Positions 20,010 to 62,172 of a stretch of DNA of 64,000 bases are shown piece by piece; position 1 is the stretch's first letter, and each line of letters begins with the position of its first letter. Where the stretch lies: positions 62,001-126,000 of the forward strand of contig CAINED010000013.1 in the NCBI GenBank assembly GCA_903847605.1, given 5' to 3'. This DNA comes from an uncultured Hyphomicrobiales bacterium. GTDB lineage: Bacteria; Pseudomonadota; Alphaproteobacteria; Rhizobiales; Beijerinckiaceae. A program made the translations under genes and the position numbers. The notes below the pieces were generated by a model, which saw nothing but the letters and a program-made list of their open reading frames with translations, searched no databases and was not told the origin of the DNA.

Positions 20010-20152
20010 CTGCGGTGAGAATTGCCCATGCCAAGGGCGTCCGTGCGCTTGACTTGCGGGGGCCGTTAGGGATGATCGCGCCATCGGAAAGGCGCCCGGC
20101 CGCCGTGTCAAAAATCCCCGCGGGATCAATCCTGCGGCTTTGGGAGGATGAA

Positions 20153-21076
20153 ATGAAACTCGCATTTTTCAACGACTGGCGTCTCGGCGTCGTCAATGGC
20201 GACGAAATCGTCGATGTCATGGACGCTGTCAGCCTTGTGCCGCGCGTCGGCCCGCACGACGTGATCAACGGCGTGATCGAGCGCTGGAGCGAATACAAGG
20301 GCAAGATCGAGGCCGCCGCCAAGGGCAAGGGCGTGCCGCTCGCCAGCGTTACCCTGCGTCCGCCGCTGCCGCGCCCCATCAACATCGACTGCATGGCCGT
20401 GAACTACATGGAAGACGGCACGCGCACCGAGCCCGCGCCGATCAACGGCTTTCCCAAATCGGCGAACTGCATCATCGGCCCGGGCCAGCAGATGATCATG
20501 ACCGACATTCCCATGACCGCCTTCGAGGCGGAGGCCGAACTCGGCCTCGTCATCGGCAAGAAGGGCCACAACATTCCCGCCGCCAACTGGCGCGAGCATG
20601 TGTTCGGCTATGTCAATTTCATCGACGGTTCGGCCCGCGGCCTGCCGCCGCCGGGCGCGGTCTTCTACCAGATGAAGAATCGTGAAACCTTCGCGCCGAT
20701 CGGACCGTGGATCGTCACCGCCGACGAGGTGCCGGATCCGCAACAATTGCAGGTGCGCCTGTGGGTGAATGGCGAACTGCGCCAAAACTTCAACACATCC
20801 GATATGGCGCACAAGATCCCGCGCAGCATCGAATGGGTGAGCGCGATGCATACGCTCAACCCCGGCGACATCATCGCGACCGGCACCAACCACGGCGGCC
20901 TCTCTTCTCTGATGGACGGCGACAAGGTGGAACTGGAATGCGACCATTGCGGCCGCCTCGCCGTGACGGTGAAGGACGATCTCAAGCGCAAGTGGCCGAG
21001 TGTGACACGCCTGCAGGGCGGCGACCGTTCGAAGGCTTCCGTGCAGATCGGCGGCAAATACGCGCCGGCTAAATAA
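20153..21076 (+). CDS. Fumarylacetoacetate hydrolase (FAH) family protein
   Basis: This 307-residue enzyme of the FAH superfamily acts on acyl pyruvates or 2-hydroxydienoates, by C-C cleavage, decarboxylation or hydration. The metal-binding core is visible: acidic residues in FEAEAELGLVIGKKG, then FGYVNFIDGSARG, FAPIGPWIV and the closing PGDIIATGTNHGG. The ATG at 20153 has GGGAGGA upstream. The frame is open further left but without a start signal. The next gene, 11 bases on, is a TTT-type binding protein, so the pair probably imports and processes an organic acid. Confidence 0.88.
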   Translation: MKLAFFNDWRLGVVNGDEIVDVMDAVSLVPRVGPHDVINGVIERWSEYKGKIEAAAKGKGVPLASVTLRPPLPRPINIDCMAVNYMEDGTRTEPAPINGFPKSANCIIGPGQQMIMTDIPMTAFEAEAELGLVIGKKGHNIPAANWREHVFGYVNFIDGSARGLPPPGAVFYQMKNRETFAPIGPWIVTADEVPDPQQLQVRLWVNGELRQNFNTSDMAHKIPRSIEWVSAMHTLNPGDIIATGTNHGGLSSLMDGDKVELECDHCGRLAVTVKDDLKRKWPSVTRLQGGDRSKASVQIGGKYAPAK

Positions 21077-21087
21077 GGAGAAGGGCG

Positions 21088-22155
21088 ATGCGTGGCATGG
21101 ACAGGCATCGCACCTTGAAGATTGCAGCGGCTGCGCTTCTTGGCGCGGCCGTTTTGCTATCCGGCCCAGCGCGGGCGCAAACCCAGCAGGACGCCGTTGC
21201 GCAATTCTACAAGGGCAAGACGATCAGGCTGATCGTCGGCGCGGCAGCGGGCGCGGCCTATGATTTCATGGCGCGCGTGCTCGCCACGCATTACGGAAAA
21301 TACATTCCCGGCCATCCGACCTTTGTCGTTGAGAACATGCCGGGTGCCGGCTCCATTGTGATGCTGAACTATCTCGCCGTGCGCGCGCCGCAGGACGGAA
21401 CCGCCATCGGCCTGTCGCTCGGCGGCGTCATCCACGAACCACGGCTCAATGCGTTGTCGCGCGACGGCAAGAACGTGCAGTTCGACGCCACGAAATTCGG
21501 CTGGCTCGGCTCGCCGGCGCAACAGCCGCTGATCTATGTCGTCTGGCACCAGACTCCGTTCCAGACTTTCGCCGACATACAAAAGCAGGAAGCGACGTTC
21601 GCGACGACGTCGCGTTCCGGCGACAATTTCGTGATCCCAGTCTTCACCAATCAGGCGCTCGGCACCAAGCTGAAACTGGTGCAGGGCTACAAGGGCGTGA
21701 ACGACATCTTTCACGCGATGGAACAGGGCGAAGTACAGGGCACGGGCATGATCCTGGCGAGCCTTCTCGCCAAGCAGGACTGGATCAGGGACAGGAAGGC
21801 GCGCGTGCTCATGCAATTCGGTGCGACACGCAACCGGCTCATTCCGGATGTTCCCACTGCCATCGAAGTGCTGCAGGACGAGAAGACGAAGCAGATGCTG
21901 CGCATCTACGCGCAGAAATATGCAACGACCTATCCGTTCATGCTGCCATCAGGCACGCCGCCGGAGAGATTGCGCGCGCTGCAACAGGCCTTCGACGCGG
22001 CGATGAAGGACGAAGCCCTTATCGCGGACGCGCGCAAGTTCGGCATCGACATCGATCCGGTGCGCGGCGAAGAGATCGAGAAGATCGTTGCGGAAGTGGC
22101 GAAGCTGCCCGGGGATGTGGTCGAGCAGTTGCGCGGGCTGATCAATCCGCCGTGA
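21088..22155 (+). CDS. TTT-family solute-binding protein
   Basis: This 355-residue periplasmic binding protein carries a signal peptide (LKIAAAALLGAAVLLSG, ending ARAQ|TQ). It then has the family opening FYKGKTIRLIVGAAAGAAYD and the motif ENMPGAGSIVMLNYLA. AAGGAGAAGG precedes the ATG at 21088. It resembles the protein at the left window edge (FYKGKxxxxxVG, NxPGAGS) more than the one at 14797, so at least two subtypes are present. It is co-transcribed with the FAH-family gene; membrane subunits are absent here. Confidence 0.9.
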   Translation: MRGMDRHRTLKIAAAALLGAAVLLSGPARAQTQQDAVAQFYKGKTIRLIVGAAAGAAYDFMARVLATHYGKYIPGHPTFVVENMPGAGSIVMLNYLAVRAPQDGTAIGLSLGGVIHEPRLNALSRDGKNVQFDATKFGWLGSPAQQPLIYVVWHQTPFQTFADIQKQEATFATTSRSGDNFVIPVFTNQALGTKLKLVQGYKGVNDIFHAMEQGEVQGTGMILASLLAKQDWIRDRKARVLMQFGATRNRLIPDVPTAIEVLQDEKTKQMLRIYAQKYATTYPFMLPSGTPPERLRALQQAFDAAMKDEALIADARKFGIDIDPVRGEEIEKIVAEVAKLPGDVVEQLRGLINPP

Positions 22156-22209: not shown

Positions 22210-23199
22210 TCAATCCCAGATTTCATCCGGCGGCGCGCGGCCGGCCAGAAATGCCAGAATGTTATCCGCGGCCCTGTGTTCGATGGCGAGCCTTACGCTG
22301 GCGACGGCAGAGCCCAGATGCGGCGTGAACAGGGTCGCGGGATGCTCGCCCAAGGCTGGCGGGATATGCTTCGGGCGGTCGGCCAGAGCCCAATCCTCGA
22401 AAGCGAAGACATCCGCTGCATAACCGCCAAGGGCGCCTGACGACAGCGCGCCTGCAATGGCCGTTTCGTCCACGACGGAGCCTCGCCCCACGTTGACGAT
22501 GAACTGTCCGGGCTTTGCCTGCGAAAGATATTGCCGGCCTATCATTTCGCGTGTGGCGGCGTTCAGCGGCGCGGCAAGGAAAACATAATCAGCATCCGCG
22601 CCAGCAGCCTGCAGGCTCGCCATCTCCACGCGCGGATCGCATTCCCGGGGATCGACGCCCATAATGCGCGCGCAACCAAAGCCCGCAAGTCTGTCGACGA
22701 TCGCGCGGCCAACCTTGCCGAGACCGACGACCGCCACCGTCGCCCGATGCAGGCCGGCTCCATAGAGCACAGGCTGCCAACCCGCGAAAGCGCCGCTGCG
22801 CACCCGCGCGTCGCCCATGCGAACGTGGCGAGTCAAACCGATGGCCAGCCCGATAGCGAGTTCAGCGGTGGGCTCGGTCAACAGATCCGGCACGATGGAA
22901 ACGCGAACACCGGCTTTGACAGCAGCCGCAATATCGAAATTGTCGTAACCTTTGAGGGCGCAGGCCAGCATCTTGAGCCGGCCGGGACTTGCGAAGAAGG
23001 CGGCGTCCAAGCGGTCCGGCATGAATGCCATAACGGCGTCGCAGTCGCGGGCATGGGCTTCGACCTCTTCGCGGGTCCAGGGATCGATCCCTGGATTGAT
23101 GACGACTTCCCCAGCCTTGCGCAGCCTGTCCGCAACGGCTTCGTGTATTTGCGCTGTCACGAGAATGCGGCGCTGCGGAAGCCCTTCGGACTCTGTCAT
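22210..23199 (-). CDS. ptxD: Phosphite dehydrogenase PtxD (NAD-dependent)
   Basis: PtxD oxidises phosphite to phosphate with NAD. The 329-residue protein belongs to the D-2-hydroxyacid dehydrogenase superfamily but carries the phosphite-specific signature throughout. It has MAFMPDR (Met60), CALKGYDNFD (Lys83), GWQPVLYGAGL (Trp141, Tyr146), GRGSVVDE (Arg239), FEDWALADRP (Glu268) and TPHLGS (His294). These match Met53, Lys76, Trp134, Tyr139, Arg237, Glu266 and His292 of the Pseudomonas stutzeri enzyme, as I recall that sequence. The Rossmann GxGxxG is at 159-164 and Asp183 after strand 2 favours NAD over NADP. It is the last gene of a four-gene operon, with a 4-base overlap with the permease. 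Confidence 0.93.
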   Translation of the reverse strand: MTESEGLPQRRILVTAQIHEAVADRLRKAGEVVINPGIDPWTREEVEAHARDCDAVMAFMPDRLDAAFFASPGRLKMLACALKGYDNFDIAAAVKAGVRVSIVPDLLTEPTAELAIGLAIGLTRHVRMGDARVRSGAFAGWQPVLYGAGLHRATVAVVGLGKVGRAIVDRLAGFGCARIMGVDPRECDPRVEMASLQAAGADADYVFLAAPLNAATREMIGRQYLSQAKPGQFIVNVGRGSVVDETAIAGALSSGALGGYAADVFAFEDWALADRPKHIPPALGEHPATLFTPHLGSAVASVRLAIEHRAADNILAFLAGRAPPDEIWD

Positions 23200-24002
23200 T
23201 TCAGCAACTGTCGCAAGCGACCGCCGATTGTATCGACCACGACGACGCAGGCCAGGATGGTCAGCAAGATTGCGGACACCTCGTCGTATTTGATCAGCCT
23301 GAGCGCCGCCATCAATTCAAAGCCGATGCCGCCCGCCCCAACGATGCCCAGAACTGCCGATGCGCGGAAGTGATATTCGGTCCGGTATATCGTCACATCG
23401 GCCAGTTGCGGCAGAACCTGCGGCAGGATCGCGTGGGTGATGACCTGGAACCGCGTGGCGCCAGCGGCACGAGCCGCTTCAAGCGGTTTGGGATCGACGT
23501 GTTCGATGGCTTCGGCATAGAATTTTCCGACCATGCCCACGGAATGAAGGCCCAGGGCCAGCACGCCCGGCAGTGCGCCGAAACCGACCGCGGCGACGAA
23601 CAGAATACCCAGAATGATTTCCGGAACGGAACGCAGCAAAGCCAACAATGCACGCGCGCATTCGTAGACGATGCGGTGCGGCGATGTATTCCTCGCAGCG
23701 CACAGGGCGAGCGGCAGCGAGAAGAAGATGGCAACCGCCGTTCCGGCAATCGACATCGCCAGCGTGTCGAGCAACGGACGCAGCCAGCTTTGCCAGCGGG
23801 CGAAATTGGGCGGGACCATTTCGCTGGCCAGCTGTTTGATCGCCGGCCCGCTTTCGATAAAGCGCTGCGCGTCGAAAAATCCGGTGATCCACAGAGCGGC
23901 GCCGGTGACCGCCAGTATGGCGCCCAGCGTGCCAGCGTGACGCCATGCGGCGCGCCGGTCCTGCGCAAGGATAGCTGCATATTGCGCGACGCTGCCGCTC
24001 AT
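23196..24002 (-). CDS. ptxC: Phosphite/phosphonate ABC transporter permease (PtxC/PhnE)
   Basis: This 268-residue inner-membrane permease of the PhnE family has about six hydrophobic helices. The cytoplasmic EAA loop is EAARAAGATRFQVITHAILP. The family moves phosphonates, phosphite or hypophosphite; phosphite is inferred from the ptxD gene that overlaps it by ATGA. Its start also overlaps the binding-protein stop by 4 bases. The gene order (ATPase, binding protein, permease, dehydrogenase) is that of ptxABCD. Confidence 0.9.
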   Translation of the reverse strand: MSGSVAQYAAILAQDRRAAWRHAGTLGAILAVTGAALWITGFFDAQRFIESGPAIKQLASEMVPPNFARWQSWLRPLLDTLAMSIAGTAVAIFFSLPLALCAARNTSPHRIVYECARALLALLRSVPEIILGILFVAAVGFGALPGVLALGLHSVGMVGKFYAEAIEHVDPKPLEAARAAGATRFQVITHAILPQVLPQLADVTIYRTEYHFRASAVLGIVGAGGIGFELMAALRLIKYDEVSAILLTILACVVVVDTIGGRLRQLLK

Positions 24003-24868
24003 TTCATGGACGCAAGATCGAGCTGAAGTATTTTTGCGGTTTCGCGCAGCACGTCATAGGTCTGGTCGTTCGCGGCGACAAATCCTTCGACGCGGAAGGA
24101 CTTCAGAACGTCCTTGTCTTTGTTTTCGAGGAAAGCCTTGCGGATCGCGTCTTTCAGAGCGGGCGCGAGATCGCCCTGCATGACAATGGGATAGTTCGGA
24201 ATTTTTTCCGAAAGCGCGAGGATCGTCAGTTTATCCGCGTCAATCGTCTTGCGTTCGACGAGCACATCGAAGATCGATTTCGACAGCGCGCCCGCAGGCA
24301 CCTGCCCTGCCTGAACCGCGCGCGCGACCGCGTCATGCGTACCCAGATGAACGGGCTTGTAATCCTTCGCCCCATCAAGGCCGGCTTTGCTCAACAACAG
24401 CGCCCGCGGCGAAAGATGGCTCGATGTCGAAGCCTGGTCGCCAAAGCCGAAGGGCTTGCCGCGCACATCTTCCAGCGTCTTCACGGGACCGGCCTTGTTG
24501 GCGATCAGCACCGAATTGTAGAATGGCGCGCCGCGCTCGACCCCGACCGCAAAGGGCTCGATGTTAGGCGCCTTCGATTTTGCAAGGACGTAAGAAAATG
24601 GCCCGAAATAGGCCACTTCGATCCGGCCAAACCGCATTGCCTCGATCATCGAGGAATAATCGGTCGTCACGATGATCTCGATGTCCTTCTTGAGAACATT
24701 CGCGAGATAGGTCTTGAGCGGCTGGGCATTTTGAATGAGCGTCGAAGCGTTTTCGTCCGGTAGCAACGCCACCCGCAGTCTGGCCGGGTCTTTTCCCTGC
24801 GCGAAGGCAGGCGTTGCGGCGCAAACCGCGCTGGCGGCGACGATGCGAATAAAGTCTCTGCGTTTCAT
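23999..24868 (-). CDS. ptxB: Phosphite/phosphonate-binding protein (PtxB/PhnD)
   Basis: This 289-residue periplasmic binding protein of the PhnD family has a signal peptide containing KRRDFIRIV, which fits Tat export, and cleavage near AFAQ|GK. Ligand-site motifs of the family are clear: TDYSSMIEAMRFG, VAYFGPFSYVLA and GDQASTSSHLSPR. PhnD-type and PtxB-type proteins cannot be told apart with certainty by eye; the assignment to phosphite rests on the linked ptxD. Both ends overlap neighbours by 4 bases (ATGA). Confidence 0.9.
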   Translation of the reverse strand: MKRRDFIRIVAASAVCAATPAFAQGKDPARLRVALLPDENASTLIQNAQPLKTYLANVLKKDIEIIVTTDYSSMIEAMRFGRIEVAYFGPFSYVLAKSKAPNIEPFAVGVERGAPFYNSVLIANKAGPVKTLEDVRGKPFGFGDQASTSSHLSPRALLLSKAGLDGAKDYKPVHLGTHDAVARAVQAGQVPAGALSKSIFDVLVERKTIDADKLTILALSEKIPNYPIVMQGDLAPALKDAIRKAFLENKDKDVLKSFRVEGFVAANDQTYDVLRETAKILQLDLASMK

Positions 24869-25665
24869 GAAGCTACTCCCAAGGCCGGCGTGTTCTGGAT
24901 GGATGCGCGTTTGATTGGCCGTGCGCCGGCCGGAACGATGTTGCCGTAAATCGCCGAGACAGCGTTCTCATCGAGTTGGGAAGGCGGACCGTCGAAGACA
25001 ATTTTTCCGGCATGAAGACCGACTATCCGGTCTGCGAACTTCCTGGCGAATTCGAGCTGATGCAAACTAACTACCGCGGTAAGCCCGTCGCTCCTGCATA
25101 TGCCGTGCAGCATCGACAGCACTTGCTCCGAAGTCGCCGGATCCAGCGATGCGACCGGCTCGTCGGCAAGAATAGTCTTCGGCGATTGCACCAGTGCGCG
25201 GGCAATGCCGACGCGCTGTTGTTGCCCGCCGGACAATTCGTCGGCGCGGCGCAAGGCCTCGTTCAGCAAGCCGACGCGGTCGATCGCCCTCAGGGCCAAT
25301 TCCTTTTCGGCCCGCGAGAAGCCGAACAGCGTCCTCAGCTGCGAATGATAGGCAAGCCGGCCCGTCAGTACATTCGCCAACACATTCAATCGGCCGATCA
25401 AATGATGTTGCTGGAAGACCATGCCGGTCTGGCGCCGGTGCATGCGCAATCGCTTGCTGTCGGAGATGTCGCCGATGCCTGCAACTTCGATTCGCCCGCC
25501 GGTCAGTTGCACGAGGCCATTGAAGGAGCGCAACAATGTGGACTTGCCGGCGCCCGATGGACCCAGCAAGACGGTAAACCTGCCGGGCTCGATCGCCAGC
25601 GACGTTGCAGTCAGCGCCAACGTGCCGTTGGAATAGGTTACTTCGGCGGCTACAGCTGTGAGCAT
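24865..25665 (-). CDS. ptxA: Phosphite/phosphonate ABC transporter ATPase (PtxA/PhnC)
   Basis: This 266-residue ATPase of the PhnC family has Walker A GPSGAGKST, Q-loop QTGMVFQQHHLIGRLNVL, signature ELSGGQQQRVGIARAL and Walker B TILADEPVASLDP. The start at 25665 gives the usual family length; the frame is open much further left, but that part is non-coding in character. It is the first gene of the operon, so the promoter must lie in the 25666-25976 gap. Expression under phosphate limitation is expected from known ptx/phn systems but is not proven by a good Pho box. Confidence 0.9.
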   Translation of the reverse strand: MLTAVAAEVTYSNGTLALTATSLAIEPGRFTVLLGPSGAGKSTLLRSFNGLVQLTGGRIEVAGIGDISDSKRLRMHRRQTGMVFQQHHLIGRLNVLANVLTGRLAYHSQLRTLFGFSRAEKELALRAIDRVGLLNEALRRADELSGGQQQRVGIARALVQSPKTILADEPVASLDPATSEQVLSMLHGICRSDGLTAVVSLHQLEFARKFADRIVGLHAGKIVFDGPPSQLDENAVSAIYGNIVPAGARPIKRASIQNTPALGVAS

Positions 25666-25976
25666 TGTCCCGGCACCCCGAGGGGTCGCTAGGCTTGCGA
25701 AATGACGGGCGCGTGAATTTTTTGCGACGAATGCTTGCCGGGGCCGTTTGGCGCCGGGACAGCTGGTCCATGCCCGCGGCTCATCGCCTCCGCCGTGAGA
25801 CACTGTCACCCCGGACGCCGAAAGCGATCCGGGGCCGCAACAGACCATTACCTCGCAAACGATCCCGGCTCTCTGCTTCGCTCTGGCCGGGACGGCATCC
25901 AGGCCTCCCACTTGCCAATCAGCTTTCGCTGCCGCAAATCTCCAGCAAATCCTGACCCTGCCTGCCGGAGAGCCCG
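25666..25976. other. Divergent intergenic region between ptxA and gcdH, with hairpins
   Basis: It must contain the promoters for both operons. Two GC-rich stems are visible: CCCCGG...CCGGGG at about 25809-25836, and a longer one built on gatcccggctctctgcttc with gccgggac at about 25860-25894. The second is of a kind dispersed in Hyphomicrobiales genomes. A weak Pho-box-like pair on the minus strand lies at 25702-25719 (CCGTCAT next to the poorer AATTCAC, 4 bases apart). It is only a candidate. Confidence 0.35.
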
Positions 25977-27170
25977 ATGACCAGCCACGCCCGCAATGAA
26001 TTCGTCTGGGACGACCCCTTCCTCTTCGAAAGCCAGCTTTCCGAAGACGAGCGGATGATCCGCGACACGGCTCGCGACTTTGCCCAGGACGAACTGCTGC
26101 CCAAGGTGGTCAAAGCCTACGAGAACGAGACTGTCGATCGCGAGGTCTTTCCGGCCATGGGCCGGCTTGGCCTTCTCGCGGTGACCCTGCCCGAACAATA
26201 TGGCGGCGTCGGCGCGAACTACGTGTCCTACGGCCTCGTGGCGCGCGAGATCGAGCGGGTGGATTCTGGCTATCGGTCCATGCTCTCGGTGCAATCCTCG
26301 CTGGTGATGCATCCGATCAACGCCTTCGGCAGCGAGGAGCAGAAGCGCAAATACCTGCCGAAACTGGCGACCGGCGAATGGATCGGCTGCTTCGGTCTGA
26401 CCGAACCGGATTCGGGCTCCGATCCCGGCTCGATGACGACGCGGGCCGAAAAGGTGCAGGGCGGCTATCGCATCACCGGCCAAAAGATGTGGATTTCCAA
26501 CGCCCCGATCGCCGACGTCTTCGTGATCTGGGCGAAGTCCGATGCGCACAAGGGCGCGATCAGGGGCTTCATTCTCGAAAAAGGCATGGCCGGGCTTTCC
26601 GCGCCGAAGGTCGAGGGCAAACTGTCGCTGCGCGTCTCGGTGACCGGCGAAGTCGTCATGGACGGTGTCGAAGTCTCCGAAGAGCAGATGCTGCCGAATG
26701 TGAGCGGCCTCAAGGGGCCGTTCGAATGCCTCAACCGTGCGCGCTTTGGCATTTCATGGGGCGCTCTCGGTGCGGCCGAGGATTGCTGGCATCGCGCGCG
26801 TCAATATACGCTCGACCGCAAGCAGTTCGGCCGCCCGCTCGCCGCCAACCAGCTCATCCAGAAGAAGCTCGCGGACATGCAGACGGAAATCACGCTGGGC
26901 CTGCAGGGCTCGCTGCGCGTCGGCCGGTTGTTCGACGAGGGCCGCATCGCACCGGAGATGATCTCCATGATGAAGCGCAACAATGCCGGCAAGGCGCTGG
27001 ATATCGCACGCGTCGCGCGCGACATGCACGGCGGCAACGGCATTCATGGCGAGTTTCACGTCATCCGCCACATGATCAATCTCGAAACCGTCAACACCTA
27101 CGAAGGCACGCATGACGTGCATGCGCTGATTCTCGGGCGCGCGCAGACCGGCATTCAGGCCTTTTTCTGA
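25977..27170 (+). CDS. gcdH: Glutaryl-CoA dehydrogenase
   Basis: This is a 397-residue flavoprotein of the acyl-CoA dehydrogenase family that converts glutaryl-CoA to crotonyl-CoA and CO2, a step in lysine, tryptophan and glutarate breakdown. The decisive motif is [19 protein letters not shown] with catalytic Glu376, almost the same as in mitochondrial [19 protein letters not shown] and [14 protein letters not shown] are the flavin and substrate motifs. GGAGAG precedes the ATG. The CoA-transferase gene downstream supports the pathway. Confidence 0.95.
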
Positions 27171-40985: not shown

Positions 40986-41636
40986 TTAGCCCGCACTCCA
41001 GTTGTCGTTCAAACCGTTGGCTGTTGTAACGCCGGGCAAGCTCCTACCGCCCGGGTTAAGAACAGGAACAGTTGATCGGTCTCCGCGCACCGTAGCGATT
41101 CTTACGAACATTTTCTCGCAAACTAACGTCCATTGATTGGTCCCTCTTGCTTTGGAATTGGGATATTTTTTTAACCAGAAAACCCCCTTCCCTGGATCTG
41201 GGGCAACCGGTAAAATTTTGACGATCTGTTCAGGCCCAATGCGAACGTTCATTTTCGAAGTTTCAACATTCATGAATTTTGCAAGATAAGCGTCAACCGA
41301 GAGTTCGTCGTTACTTAACCGTTTGCCCAATTCGGCGCGAAACAGATCGAAAGCTTGTGCATAGTAACTTTCTTCGCCATCGCGGGTCAGGCCACTATCC
41401 AGCCTCCACCCTCCGGAAAACAAGGTTTGATCCTTCCATATGAAATCGCGAGGAAAGACCTTTTCGCACAGCTTGTAGATATCATACCCGTAAGCGAGGC
41501 GGCCCGTCTCGTAGCCGATACGATACTCAAGCTCCCATGAACTCAACCCGCGGTAAGCGCCCATTGTGCTAACGTCACCGCGCAAACGCATGATGTCCCG
41601 CTTCATCGGAGGAATTTTCGATTTGATCGAAGCCAT
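40986..41636 (-). CDS. Protein of unknown function in an AT-richer patch
   Basis: This 216-residue protein has no motif I recognise. It is soluble and mixed, with clusters of aromatic and charged residues (SWELEYRIGYETGRLAYGYD, FLWKD-like and GVFWLKKYP segments) and no signal peptide or membrane helix. GGAGAA lies 4 bases before the ATG at 41636, which supports a real start. The base composition is clearly less GC-rich than in the flanking genes, which suggests recent acquisition. It lies 234 bases downstream of the Hsp70-like gene on the same strand. Confidence 0.6.
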   Translation of the reverse strand: MASIKSKIPPMKRDIMRLRGDVSTMGAYRGLSSWELEYRIGYETGRLAYGYDIYKLCEKVFPRDFIWKDQTLFSGGWRLDSGLTRDGEESYYAQAFDLFRAELGKRLSNDELSVDAYLAKFMNVETSKMNVRIGPEQIVKILPVAPDPGKGVFWLKKYPNSKARGTNQWTLVCEKMFVRIATVRGDRSTVPVLNPGGRSLPGVTTANGLNDNWSAG

Positions 41637-47211: not shown

Positions 47212-49140
47212 TTGTCCAAAACCCCGCTGCTCGATACCATTCAGACGCCCGCCGGACTGCGCTCCCTGCCCGAAAGCGCCCTGCGCCAGTTGGCGGACGA
47301 ATTGCGCGCCGAAACTATCGACGCGGTTTCCGTGACGGGCGGTCATCTCGGCGCAGGCCTCGGCGTGGTCGAACTCACGGTCGCCCTGCATTACGTCTTC
47401 AACACCCCGGCCGACCGGCTCATCTGGGATGTCGGCCACCAGGCCTATCCGCACAAGATTCTGACCGGACGGCGCGCGCGCATCCGCACCCTGCGCCAGG
47501 CGGGCGGCCTCTCTGGATTTACGAAGCGCAGCGAAAGCGAATACGACCCCTTCGGCGCGGCGCATTCCTCCACGTCGATTTCCGCCGGGCTCGGCATGGC
47601 CGTCGCGCGGGATCTGCAGCACGGCGCGAACAAGGTGATCGCCGTCATCGGCGATGGCGCGATGAGCGCCGGCATGGCCTATGAAGCGATGAACAATGCG
47701 GGCCACATGCATTCGCGGCTCGTGGTCATCCTCAACGACAACGACATGTCCATCGCCCCGCCGACGGGCGCGATGTCGGCCTATCTCGCGCGGCTCGTTT
47801 CCGGCGGCTTTTATCAGACGATCCGCCATGTCGGCAGCCAGCTTGCCAAGAAGCTGCCGAAGTTCTTCTACGACAAGGCCAAGAAGGCGGAAGAATTCTC
47901 GCGCGGCTACTGGATGGGCGGCACGCTGTTCGAGGAAATGGGCTTTTACTACGTCGGCCCCATCGACGGCCACAACATCGACCATCTCCTGCCCGTGCTG
48001 AAAAACGTGCGCGACAAGTCGACCGGCCCGGTGCTGATTCACGTCGTCACGAAGAAGGGCAAGGGCTATGCGCCCGCCGAGAATTCGGAAGACAAATATC
48101 ACGGCGTCAACACGTTCGATGTCATCACCGGCAAGCAGGCCAAACCCAAGGCCAATGCGCCCAGCTATACGAAGGTCTTCGCCGAAAGCTTGATCAAGGC
48201 GGCCGAGAAGGACGAGAAGATCATCGCCATCACCGCGGCCATGCCTTCGGGCACCGGGCTCGACGATTTCGCGCAAAAATTTCCCGCGCGCACCTTCGAC
48301 ACCGGCATTGCCGAACAGCATGCGGTGACATTCGCGGCGGGCCTTGCGACCGAGGGCTACAAGCCCTTCTGCGCGATCTATTCCACCTTCCTGCAGCGCG
48401 GCTACGATCAGGTCGTGCACGATGTCGCCATCCAGAATCTGCCCGTGCGCTTCGCGCTCGATCGCGCGGGCCTCGTCGGCGCGGACGGGCCGACCCATGC
48501 GGGCGCTTTCGACATCGCCTATCTCGGCTGCCTGCCGAACATGACGATCATGGCCGCCGCCGACGAGGCCGAACTCGTCCACATGGTCGCGACCTCAGCC
48601 GCCCATGACGGCGGCCCCATCGCCTTGCGCTATCCGCGCGGCGAGGGCGTCGGCGTCGATATGCCCGAACAGGGCGAAGTGCTGGAGATCGGCAAGGGCC
48701 GCTATGTGCGCGGCGCGCCGGGCAAGCCCGCACAGATCGCCATTCTCTCGCTCGGCACGCGCCTCGCGGAAGCGCTGAAGGCCGCCGAAGATCTGTCTGC
48801 ACGCGGCCTGCCGACGACGGTTGCCGACGCACGCTTTGCCAAGCCGCTCGACCGCGAGATGATCCGCGATCTCGCCCGCCATCACGCCGTGCTCATCACG
48901 GCGGAGGAAGGCTCCGTCGGCGGCTTCGGCAGTTTTGTATCGCAGGCGCTGCTGGAAGACGGATTGCTCGATTCAGGCGCGCTGAAATTCCGCGCGCTGT
49001 TCTTGCCGGATATTTATATCGAGCAGGACAAGCCCGAGAAAATGTACGCCGCTGCGGGGCTGGACGCGAAGGGCATCGTCGCCAAGGCGCTGGACGCGCT
49101 GGGGCGGGGGGAGAGTGGTGTGGGGAAGGTGAGGGCTTGA
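47212..49140 (+). CDS. dxs: 1-deoxy-D-xylulose-5-phosphate synthase
   Basis: DXS joins pyruvate and glyceraldehyde 3-phosphate in the first step of the MEP isoprenoid pathway and also supplies thiamine and pyridoxal synthesis. The 642-residue protein begins with TTG at 47212, with AGGGGA upstream, matching the family N terminus ([16 protein letters not shown]). Key motifs are [16 protein letters not shown], the ThDP motif [15 protein letters not shown], and [18 protein letters not shown] in the transketolase-like part. It is on the plus strand, divergent from the DUF308 gene. The coding frame is open further left without a start. Confidence 0.98.
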
Positions 49141-49169: not shown

Positions 49170-49195
49170 CGTTAATTAGCATTGAAAAATTAACG
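49170..49195. promoter_or_regulatory. Inverted repeat upstream of the AT-rich membrane-protein gene
   Basis: CGTTAATT and AATTAACG are exact inverted copies separated by 10 bases, ending 2 bases before the GGAGG of the 49210 gene. It could be an operator or a leader hairpin. It shares the AT-rich character of the gene behind it. Confidence 0.45.
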
Positions 49196-49209
49196 TGGAG
49201 GATTTCGAA

Positions 49210-50115
49210 ATGAGTGAAACTGTTCAATCTAATACGGGTCGAGATGTGCATCCCGTAGAAGAAAAAATTGAAAAACCGTTAGAGAAAAATAGTACTATTT
49301 TACATGAACAATTGACTTCAAGAATTGTTATTCCGCCAAATTCGCCGCTACCGAAATATTTCCGCGTCAATCTTTCTGATTCTTCGGATTTGGAGTACGA
49401 GATTACTAACATCGAAGCAAAAGATATTCCTGTCGAAGCACGTCAATTCATGGCACGCGCGGATGCGGCTGTCTATCAAGTGCAGAAACTGGTTGATCAA
49501 AAACGTGATCATTTCAAAAGATATTTAAGGGAAATTGAAGGCTACGCGAAGACTGCCCTAGAGCGAGGTGATATTGAAATTGCCAACATAGGCATGGACA
49601 CCTTCGAGACCCTATTTGTGGATTTCGAAGGTCCGCGCCTGAGAAAACATTATATAACTACTATGCTCATCTGGGCAGTTTCAATTGCTTGCGTAGCTCT
49701 CGTTTCAACGCTTCTATTTCAAAAAGTGCAAACAATCGATGTATTGACAGGCGTCGCAGAAAGCAGAAATCACTTCCTCATGCCAGCGCTATTCATAATA
49801 GTTGGAGTATCTCTTGGGGTAACGTTCTCCGCATTTGCCAGAAACTTGGAACTGCATTTTAAAACTCTAGGGCGATTTGATGCATCAGGCCTAGATCCAA
49901 TGGCAAGATTTGTGTACTGCACTATTATAGCGGCTGTTTTTTCTATCTTTCTAAAGGATGGCTTTTTAAAAGTCTGTGTAAGCAACTACTGCCTGGACAA
50001 TGAATTCTCCACCAATTATCTTAAATGTATCGTTATTGGTATCCTCTGTGGTTTCAGTGATATAATCATCTCAAGATTGTTAAGTGATACAATGGGAAAG
50101 GCTGCCACAAAATAA
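49210..50115 (+). CDS. Four-helix membrane protein of unknown function (AT-rich)
   Basis: This 301-residue protein has a soluble N-terminal part (about 1-150) that includes a charged helical stretch (ARADAAVYQVQKLVDQKRDH). Four membrane helices follow: MLIWAVSIACVALVSTLLF, PALFIIVGVSLGVTFSAF, FVYCTIIAAVFSIFL and IVIGILCGFSDIIIS. GGAGG sits 8 bases before the ATG at 49210. I do not recognise the family. The base composition and codon choice (many AAA, ATT, TTA) differ sharply from dxs just upstream, which suggests horizontal transfer. Confidence 0.75.
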   Translation: MSETVQSNTGRDVHPVEEKIEKPLEKNSTILHEQLTSRIVIPPNSPLPKYFRVNLSDSSDLEYEITNIEAKDIPVEARQFMARADAAVYQVQKLVDQKRDHFKRYLREIEGYAKTALERGDIEIANIGMDTFETLFVDFEGPRLRKHYITTMLIWAVSIACVALVSTLLFQKVQTIDVLTGVAESRNHFLMPALFIIVGVSLGVTFSAFARNLELHFKTLGRFDASGLDPMARFVYCTIIAAVFSIFLKDGFLKVCVSNYCLDNEFSTNYLKCIVIGILCGFSDIIISRLLSDTMGKAATK

Positions 50116-61851: not shown

Positions 61852-62172
61852 TCATTTCGGCCGTGCGGCCTTTTCCTCGTGGCCGGACTGGGACGTGCGG
61901 CGCTGCAATTCGTCCATCACATCCTGCAACGGAACGCCGCCTGACTGAAGCACGACCAAAAGATGATAGAGGACATCGGCCGCCTCATTGCGCAGGTTTT
62001 CGCGGTCGCCCTGCATGCCGGCGATCACGGCTTCCACCGCCTCCTCGCCGAATTTTTTCGCGCAGCGCTGCATGCCCTCTTCGAGCAGGCTCTTGGTGTA
62101 GGACTTTTCCGCGCTCGCGGCAGCGCGGCTTTCGACGATCCTTGCGAGATCGGCGAGCGTGAATGCTGACAT
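61852..62172 (-). CDS. hisE: Phosphoribosyl-ATP diphosphatase
   Basis: HisE removes pyrophosphate from phosphoribosyl-ATP, the second step of histidine synthesis. The 106-residue helical protein has the MazG-fold acidic motif [14 protein letters not shown] followed by [14 protein letters not shown], which supplies the metal ligands. It is the stand-alone form, not fused to HisI. The start ATG at 62172 follows a GTG that is also possible. It lies 45 bases downstream of hisF on the same strand. Confidence 0.95.

Follow-up and report, generated by a model that had tools for sequence, protein, structure and literature searches.

Bacterial uptake and oxidation of phosphite, in which phosphorus is in a reduced state, is a system already known in detail (see the available parts of PMC5700983 and PMC6303947). 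In the Pseudomonas stutzeri type, represented here by a P. mandelii plasmid (L042) and a Stutzerimonas locus (L117), the genes form a ptxABCDE cluster in which ptxE, encoding a LysR regulator, follows ptxD. A four-gene ptxABCD form lacking ptxE occurs in Prochlorococcus, going by the description in the available part of PMC5700983. We have examined a ptx locus in a 64,000-nucleotide stretch of DNA (hereafter, the window) from an uncultured Hyphomicrobiales bacterium, namely positions 62,001 to 126,000 of contig CAINED010000013.1 in a 5.34 Mb assembly of 92 contigs (G000). The locus very probably represents a complete operon for the assimilation of phosphite. It is an ordinary new copy of a known system, apparently intact, and it leaves knowledge of the mechanism unchanged. 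Like the Prochlorococcus genes it is a four-gene form without ptxE, and it fits the name ptxABCD rather than ptxABCDE.

The window operon shares the A-B-C-D order of the P. stutzeri type, its PtxD and PtxB are each 49% identical to those of the P. mandelii plasmid, and the catalytic residues of the solved PtxD and the ligand residues of the L117 PtxB are the same as its own. It differs in having no ptxE after ptxD, in an RR-type signal on PtxB that the L042 and L117 proteins lack, in ATGA overlaps at the starts of ptxC and ptxD, which in L042 are preceded by 8-base gaps, and in an Asp at the NAD-specificity site where the P. stutzeri PtxD has Glu. Greater similarity was found to betaproteobacterial ptxABCD loci of Caldimonas caldifontis (L055), Polaromonas (L060) and Roseateles puraquae (L046), with identities of 57-60% for PtxD, 75-78% for PtxB and 73-79% for PtxC; these loci carry a LysR-type gene (29-30% identical to PtxE) divergent and upstream of ptxA, whereas the window has none. 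A sister genome (G012; locus L043, CANJJI010000014.1) encodes PtxB, PtxC, PtxA and PtxD at 95%, 92-93%, 83% and 79-80% identity, respectively. The four window genes are as follows:

24865-25665, minus strand: ptxA, predicted ATP-binding subunit of a phosphite ABC transporter, 266 aa, first of the four genes (TIGR02315 match)
23999-24868, minus strand: ptxB, predicted periplasmic binding protein for phosphite, 289 aa, carrying a Tat-like signal peptide of the RR type (match to the solved PtxB, ligand residues, N-terminus MKRRDFI)
23196-24002, minus strand: ptxC, predicted permease, 268 aa (TIGR01097 match)
22210-23199, minus strand: ptxD, predicted phosphite dehydrogenase, probably NAD-dependent, 329 aa (match to the solved PtxD, tree, residues)

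Transcription runs from the ABC ATPase through the binding protein and permease to the dehydrogenase, and neighboring genes overlap by four bases (ATGA) at all three junctions (24865-24868, 23999-24002 and 23196-23199). The open reading frame (ORF) check and the letters themselves thus agree with a preliminary description of this DNA as to coordinates, strand, gene order and overlaps. All four reading frames are intact. The start of ptxA was placed at the ATG at 25665; a longer mechanical ORF begins with a GTG at 25911, and the PtxA of the sister genome begins at the matching Met. Among 96 fetched stretches, which include the window and one duplicate contig (G012, counted twice) and some of which are cut by contig ends, 86 have ptxA, ptxB, ptxC and ptxD no more than 5 kb from each other, and in 80 of these the four genes share a strand. 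This linkage argues that the grouping of the ptx genes in the window is not due to chance. The contig scan for ptx relatives retained the best 80 matches, making the sampling incomplete and biased toward close relatives. In six of the 86 four-gene loci (L096, L100, L101, L103, L119 and L032), ptxD is divergent from ptxABC.

In a phmmer search with the window PtxD, the 14 best distinct PDB sequences were all phosphite (phosphonate) dehydrogenases (319.9-292.1 bits), and the next match was a glyoxylate reductase at 153.7 bits. The window's own genome holds 13 matches to PtxD, of which the 12 others are at no more than 32% identity. A maximum-likelihood tree of 80 rows separated 65 PtxD rows from 15 other 2-hydroxyacid dehydrogenases (2HADHs) with support of 100/99, and this split was found in 100% of 200 bootstrap trees. 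According to the preliminary description, a tree placing the enzyme with non-phosphite dehydrogenases would refute its reading; the window protein is placed on the PtxD side of that split. The PtxD rows include the solved variant, and the 15 other 2HADHs, framed by tblastn, derive from the window's own genome and its relatives, after two of 17 outgroup loci were dropped (L003, longer than 420 aa; L007, no tblastn match at 1e-5). Left out of the PtxD trees were L028 (same contig as L043), L037 (cut by a contig end) and the pair L029 and L102 (from a single genome, their ptxD interrupted by a stop), and a further 12 near-copies were left out of the 80-row tree.

The P. stutzeri active-site residues M53, L75, K76, R237, E266, H292 and R301 are all kept in the window PtxD. 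Also present are all seven residues previously singled out, with Met60, Lys83, Trp141 and Tyr146 offset by +7 from the solved PtxD numbering and Arg239, Glu268 and His294 by +2. Their value as family markers is uneven. In P. stutzeri numbering, M53, L75, K76 and D267 occur in 64 of 64 PtxD rows (window included) and in none of the 15 other 2HADHs; position 268 is Trp in 62 of 64 and 0 of 15, D267-W268 being the Asp-Trp of the FEDW motif; and position 139 (window Tyr146) is Tyr in 59 PtxDs, Phe in five and Tyr in none of the 15. Window Met60, Leu82, Lys83, Tyr146 and the Asp-Trp pair are therefore discriminating. In contrast, R237, E266, H292, R301 and W134 are present in 15, 12, 15, 12 and 11 of the 15 other 2HADHs, so Arg239, Glu268, His294 and Trp141 of the window do not mark the family. 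Arg301 is described in the available part of PMC6303947 as non-conserved in other 2HADHs, contrary to its retention in 12 of 15 outgroup rows here. Of the three motifs previously described as absent from ordinary 2HADHs (GWQP, FEDW and ADRP), FEDW bears this out with respect to its Asp-Trp, whereas the Q of GWQP is rare within PtxD itself (4/64, with R in 58/64). An acidic residue at the NAD-specificity site, Glu175 in P. stutzeri, suits NAD. The window has Asp183 at this place, as do 59 of 64 PtxDs in having Asp, which suggests that its PtxD would prefer NAD.

The window PtxB scored 265.6 bits against the solved P. stutzeri PtxB and 250.9 against the PtxB of 5JVB, compared with 88.9 against HtxB and ~69 against PhnD. 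It reached 200.5 bits with the PhnD model, below the cut-off of 261.1, and passed the broad phosphate/phosphite/phosphonate model. According to the available part of PMC5700983, phosphite is bound by a capping tyrosine with an Asp partner, two more tyrosines and an STS-H motif. None of the eight ligand and cap residues is lost in the window protein, which has Tyr226 (the capping tyrosine), Asp38 (its partner), Tyr71 and Tyr117 (answering to Y49 and Y94), Ser147-Thr148-Ser149 and His178. Among 88 PtxB-like rows, 86-88 conserve them, and the remaining rows have gaps there. A simple pattern classes the N-terminus MKRRDFI as twin-arginine; the same pattern was matched strictly by 17 of the 88 PtxB-like N-termini, loosely by 33 and not at all by 38, with some of these termini cut or late-starting. 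Taken as sequence comparisons, these results give good support to the orthology of PtxB and PtxD to phosphite proteins and to the retention of their specificity residues.

In the proposed pathway, phosphite would be captured by PtxB in the periplasm and imported through the inner membrane by PtxC and PtxA in an ATP-consuming step, and PtxD would oxidize it with NAD+ to yield phosphate and NADH, the phosphate then serving the cell as a phosphorus source. Transport, catalysis and growth on phosphite are thus predicted for the window organism. Several points weigh against this reading. Identity between the window PtxD and the solved P. stutzeri variant amounts to only 50%. The PhnC equivalog TIGR02315 is passed by PtxA (298 bits vs. 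a cut-off of 266.1, query from codon 2) and the PhnE equivalog TIGR01097 by PtxC (287.3 vs. 216.7), and on their own these two proteins are indistinguishable by profile from phosphonate transport subunits. No match to ptxE was found in the 64-kb window with P. mandelii PtxE as the query at E 1e-8. A Pho-box-like site before ptxA agrees with the consensus at nine of 14 positions and is equaled in 35% of 300 shuffles that preserved single-base make-up only. Lacking both a ptxE-like gene and a significant Pho-box site, the operon has an expression that is unexplained.

The profile matches would also be expected of a PhnCDE-type phosphonate transporter that chance had placed together with a generic glyoxylate/hydroxypyruvate reductase, more so as no NCBIfam model passes for the window PtxD and Pfam gives nothing more specific above cut-off than 2-Hacid_dh for PtxD and Phosphonate-bd for PtxB. 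Such an arrangement is highly improbable, given a binding protein that falls short of the PhnD cut-off and is far closer to PtxB than to PhnD, and a dehydrogenase that groups with PtxD and is set apart from the 15 other 2HADHs by its residues at the PtxD-specific positions. The C-P lyase component PhnJ had no match in the same genome in a search whose E. coli control was positive and which covered no other phosphonate pathway, and only one protein there strongly matches PF12974 (240.8 bits; next, 50.7), leaving a phosphonate role for the transporter without a C-P lyase partner. Little credence can be given, too, to dissimilatory oxidation, in which phosphite is the electron donor for energy. 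Dissimilatory oxidizers likewise use PtxD, but their known cluster, as given in the available part of PMC10746228, is ptxDE-ptdFCGHI, unlike the window operon, where PtxD is encoded together with a complete ATP-driven importer, as suits assimilation. No ptd genes lie beside ptxD, whose neighbors are ptxABC and the TctC-family, fumarylacetoacetate hydrolase and acyl-CoA dehydrogenase genes, the rest of the genome not having been searched for them.

A silent insertion, in which the genes are intact and unexpressed, their regulator having been left behind, concerns expression and is compatible with their identity as ptx genes; its odds are therefore not to be summed to one with those of the other explanations. 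We regard it as unlikely. The missing ptxE-like gene, the lack of a convincing Pho box and a dispersed repeat between ptxA and the next gene would all agree with silence. Against it are the four intact frames and a comparison with the sister genome, in which the Ptx proteins are 79-95% identical and fourfold-degenerate sites agree at 47-54%, a pattern indicative of purifying selection. Moreover, the PtxE search of the 96 stretches found a match of at least 40% in 29, a weaker LysR match (26-31%) in 32 and none in 35, the window and all 11 rows of an alphaproteobacterial clade among them, although some stretches are cut by contig ends. The weaker LysR gene is upstream of and divergent from ptxA in 31 of its 32 stretches. 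As to the assimilatory operon itself, its genome encodes one PhoB (328.7 bits; cut-off, 296.2). The Pho-box-like site before ptxA is not significant in the window, its score being reached by 35% of shuffles; at the same distance from ptxA the sister genome shows a 10/14 match, and five other loci reach 12/14.

The site of the operon was compared in four genomes (the window's own, G012, G019 and G029). The features bordering the ptx genes are as follows:

20111-21076, plus strand: flanking fumarylacetoacetate hydrolase family gene (Pfam), syntenic in G012, G019 and G029
21088-22155, plus strand: TctC-family receptor gene on the low side, convergent with ptxD (Pfam TctC, 52.4 bits), present in G019 without adjoining ptx genes
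25702-25719, minus strand: weak site resembling a Pho box, 54 bases upstream of the ptxA start codon (9/14 positions, not significant)
25804-25892, strand not assigned: dispersed palindrome-like repeat in the gap between ptxA and the acyl-CoA dehydrogenase gene (39 matches in its own genome, itself counted)
25977-27170, plus strand: acyl-CoA dehydrogenase gene on the high side, divergent from ptxA (Pfam), syntenic in G012, G019 and G029

The ptx operon of G012 occupies the same place, between the TctC and acyl-CoA dehydrogenase genes. In G019, these two genes are ~0.7 kb apart, separated by unrelated DNA without ptx genes, and identity to the window is 93% for the hydrolase gene and 91% for the dehydrogenase gene. 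In G029, the hydrolase gene adjoins the dehydrogenase gene (69% and 80% identity) with neither TctC nor ptx genes between them. The two flanks were not found together in the 13 others of 17 genomes with a strong hydrolase match. Different ptx operons are present elsewhere in G019 and G029, on separate contigs, and their PtxD proteins share 48-54% identity with the window PtxD. The contrast of occupied and empty sites suggests that the phosphite trait comes and goes within one genus. No tRNA genes were found in the 64-kb window.

Between the window and G012, the flanking acyl-CoA dehydrogenase gene shows 90% protein identity and 54% agreement at fourfold sites, about as the ptx genes do, and the operon has probably been present since the two species parted. 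The gap between ptxA and the acyl-CoA dehydrogenase gene (window ~25667-25910) has no match in G012. Unlike the window, G012 has a TctC 3'-end remnant upstream of ptxA (L139, 7251-7331) that covers the last 27 codons and matches at 52% of residues (E 9e-4). Of this remnant, 45 bases are 87% identical to the intact TctC gene of G012 in the same orientation, forming a direct repeat on either side of the operon that may, weak as the match is, be the footprint of an insertion.

A PtxD-like match of at least 46% was found in seven of 51 genomes of the genus, own genome included (G000, G012, G029, G036 with two copies, G019, G022 and G006). Beyond the genus, PtxD-like matches came from two of ten genomes of the family (G059, 47%; a contig-end fragment in G053, 40%) and from one of 40 genomes of the order (G084, 48%). 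At least four ptx/htx versions may be distinguished within the genus, namely the window type (G000, G012), the type of G019, G036, G022 and G006, an HtxB-linked type in G036 and the type of G029. It is tentatively hypothesized that phosphite use in this genus may be an interchangeable accessory trait, with at least four versions gained separately and the ptxE-less operon of the window lineage inserted at a single place in the chromosome and controlled by some regulator that is not PtxE, a scheme that is possible rather than probable. The additional G036 version (L030; G036:C181, 1-5213) consists of a second ptxD with a ptxE-like gene (45%), its binding protein is HtxB and not PtxB (423.6 vs. 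78.4 bits), and an adjoining ORF resembles a serine recombinase by eye. On a Ciceribacter plasmid (L040), ptxD is accompanied by a transporter of similar type (HtxB, 230.2 bits), and no htxA is annotated in the fetched stretch. At G029:C266 (L029/L102), the ptxD frame has an internal TAG in this assembly; the neighboring ptxB and ptxC matches are near full-length, and that of ptxA covers 238 residues.

In the PtxD tree, the smallest starred set holding the window PtxD beyond the sister pair comprises 28 mostly betaproteobacterial rows (support 99/97). A PtxABC tree, built by a quick method without L030, L040 and L098 (transporter not PtxB-like), places the window pair beside a similar, mostly betaproteobacterial set, unstarred and with a support of 90 from the SH-like approximate likelihood ratio test (SH-aLRT) only. 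This similar placement suggests that the transporter and dehydrogenase may have traveled together. In approximately unbiased (AU) tests of two groups named after the tree had been seen, grouping of the window PtxD with four PtxDs of the same genus (G019, G036, G022 and G006) was rejected (p 0.0019), and grouping with 11 alphaproteobacterial PtxDs was not (p 0.082). A betaproteobacterial donor is accordingly not established, despite the mostly betaproteobacterial set of the free tree. The ptx genes have a G+C of 0.57-0.64 and a G+C at third codon positions (GC3) of 0.70-0.74, and the genes on either side have a GC3 of 0.79-0.82; there is no clear sign of foreign base composition, as the somewhat lower values of the ptx genes do not go beyond the range seen among other ORFs of the window.

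The operon adds a well-supported candidate phosphite user to the Alphaproteobacteria, in a lineage represented here by draft genomes. The expectation that automatic annotation would report phosphonate transport plus a generic 2HADH is borne out by the profile scans, and such a scan alone would miss the window ptxD. For public plasmid records it mostly fails: among the matches listed, 27 of 30 relatives are named phosphonate dehydrogenase, the 30 being 48-53% identical to the window PtxD and including many near-copies. Elsewhere in the window, a 306-aa ORF at 49195-50115, directly after a long ORF ending at 49140, has a G+C of 0.40 and a GC3 of 0.37 in surroundings of ~62% G+C and is possibly foreign. 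A 216-aa ORF at 40986-41636 likewise has a lower G+C (0.50) than its surroundings.

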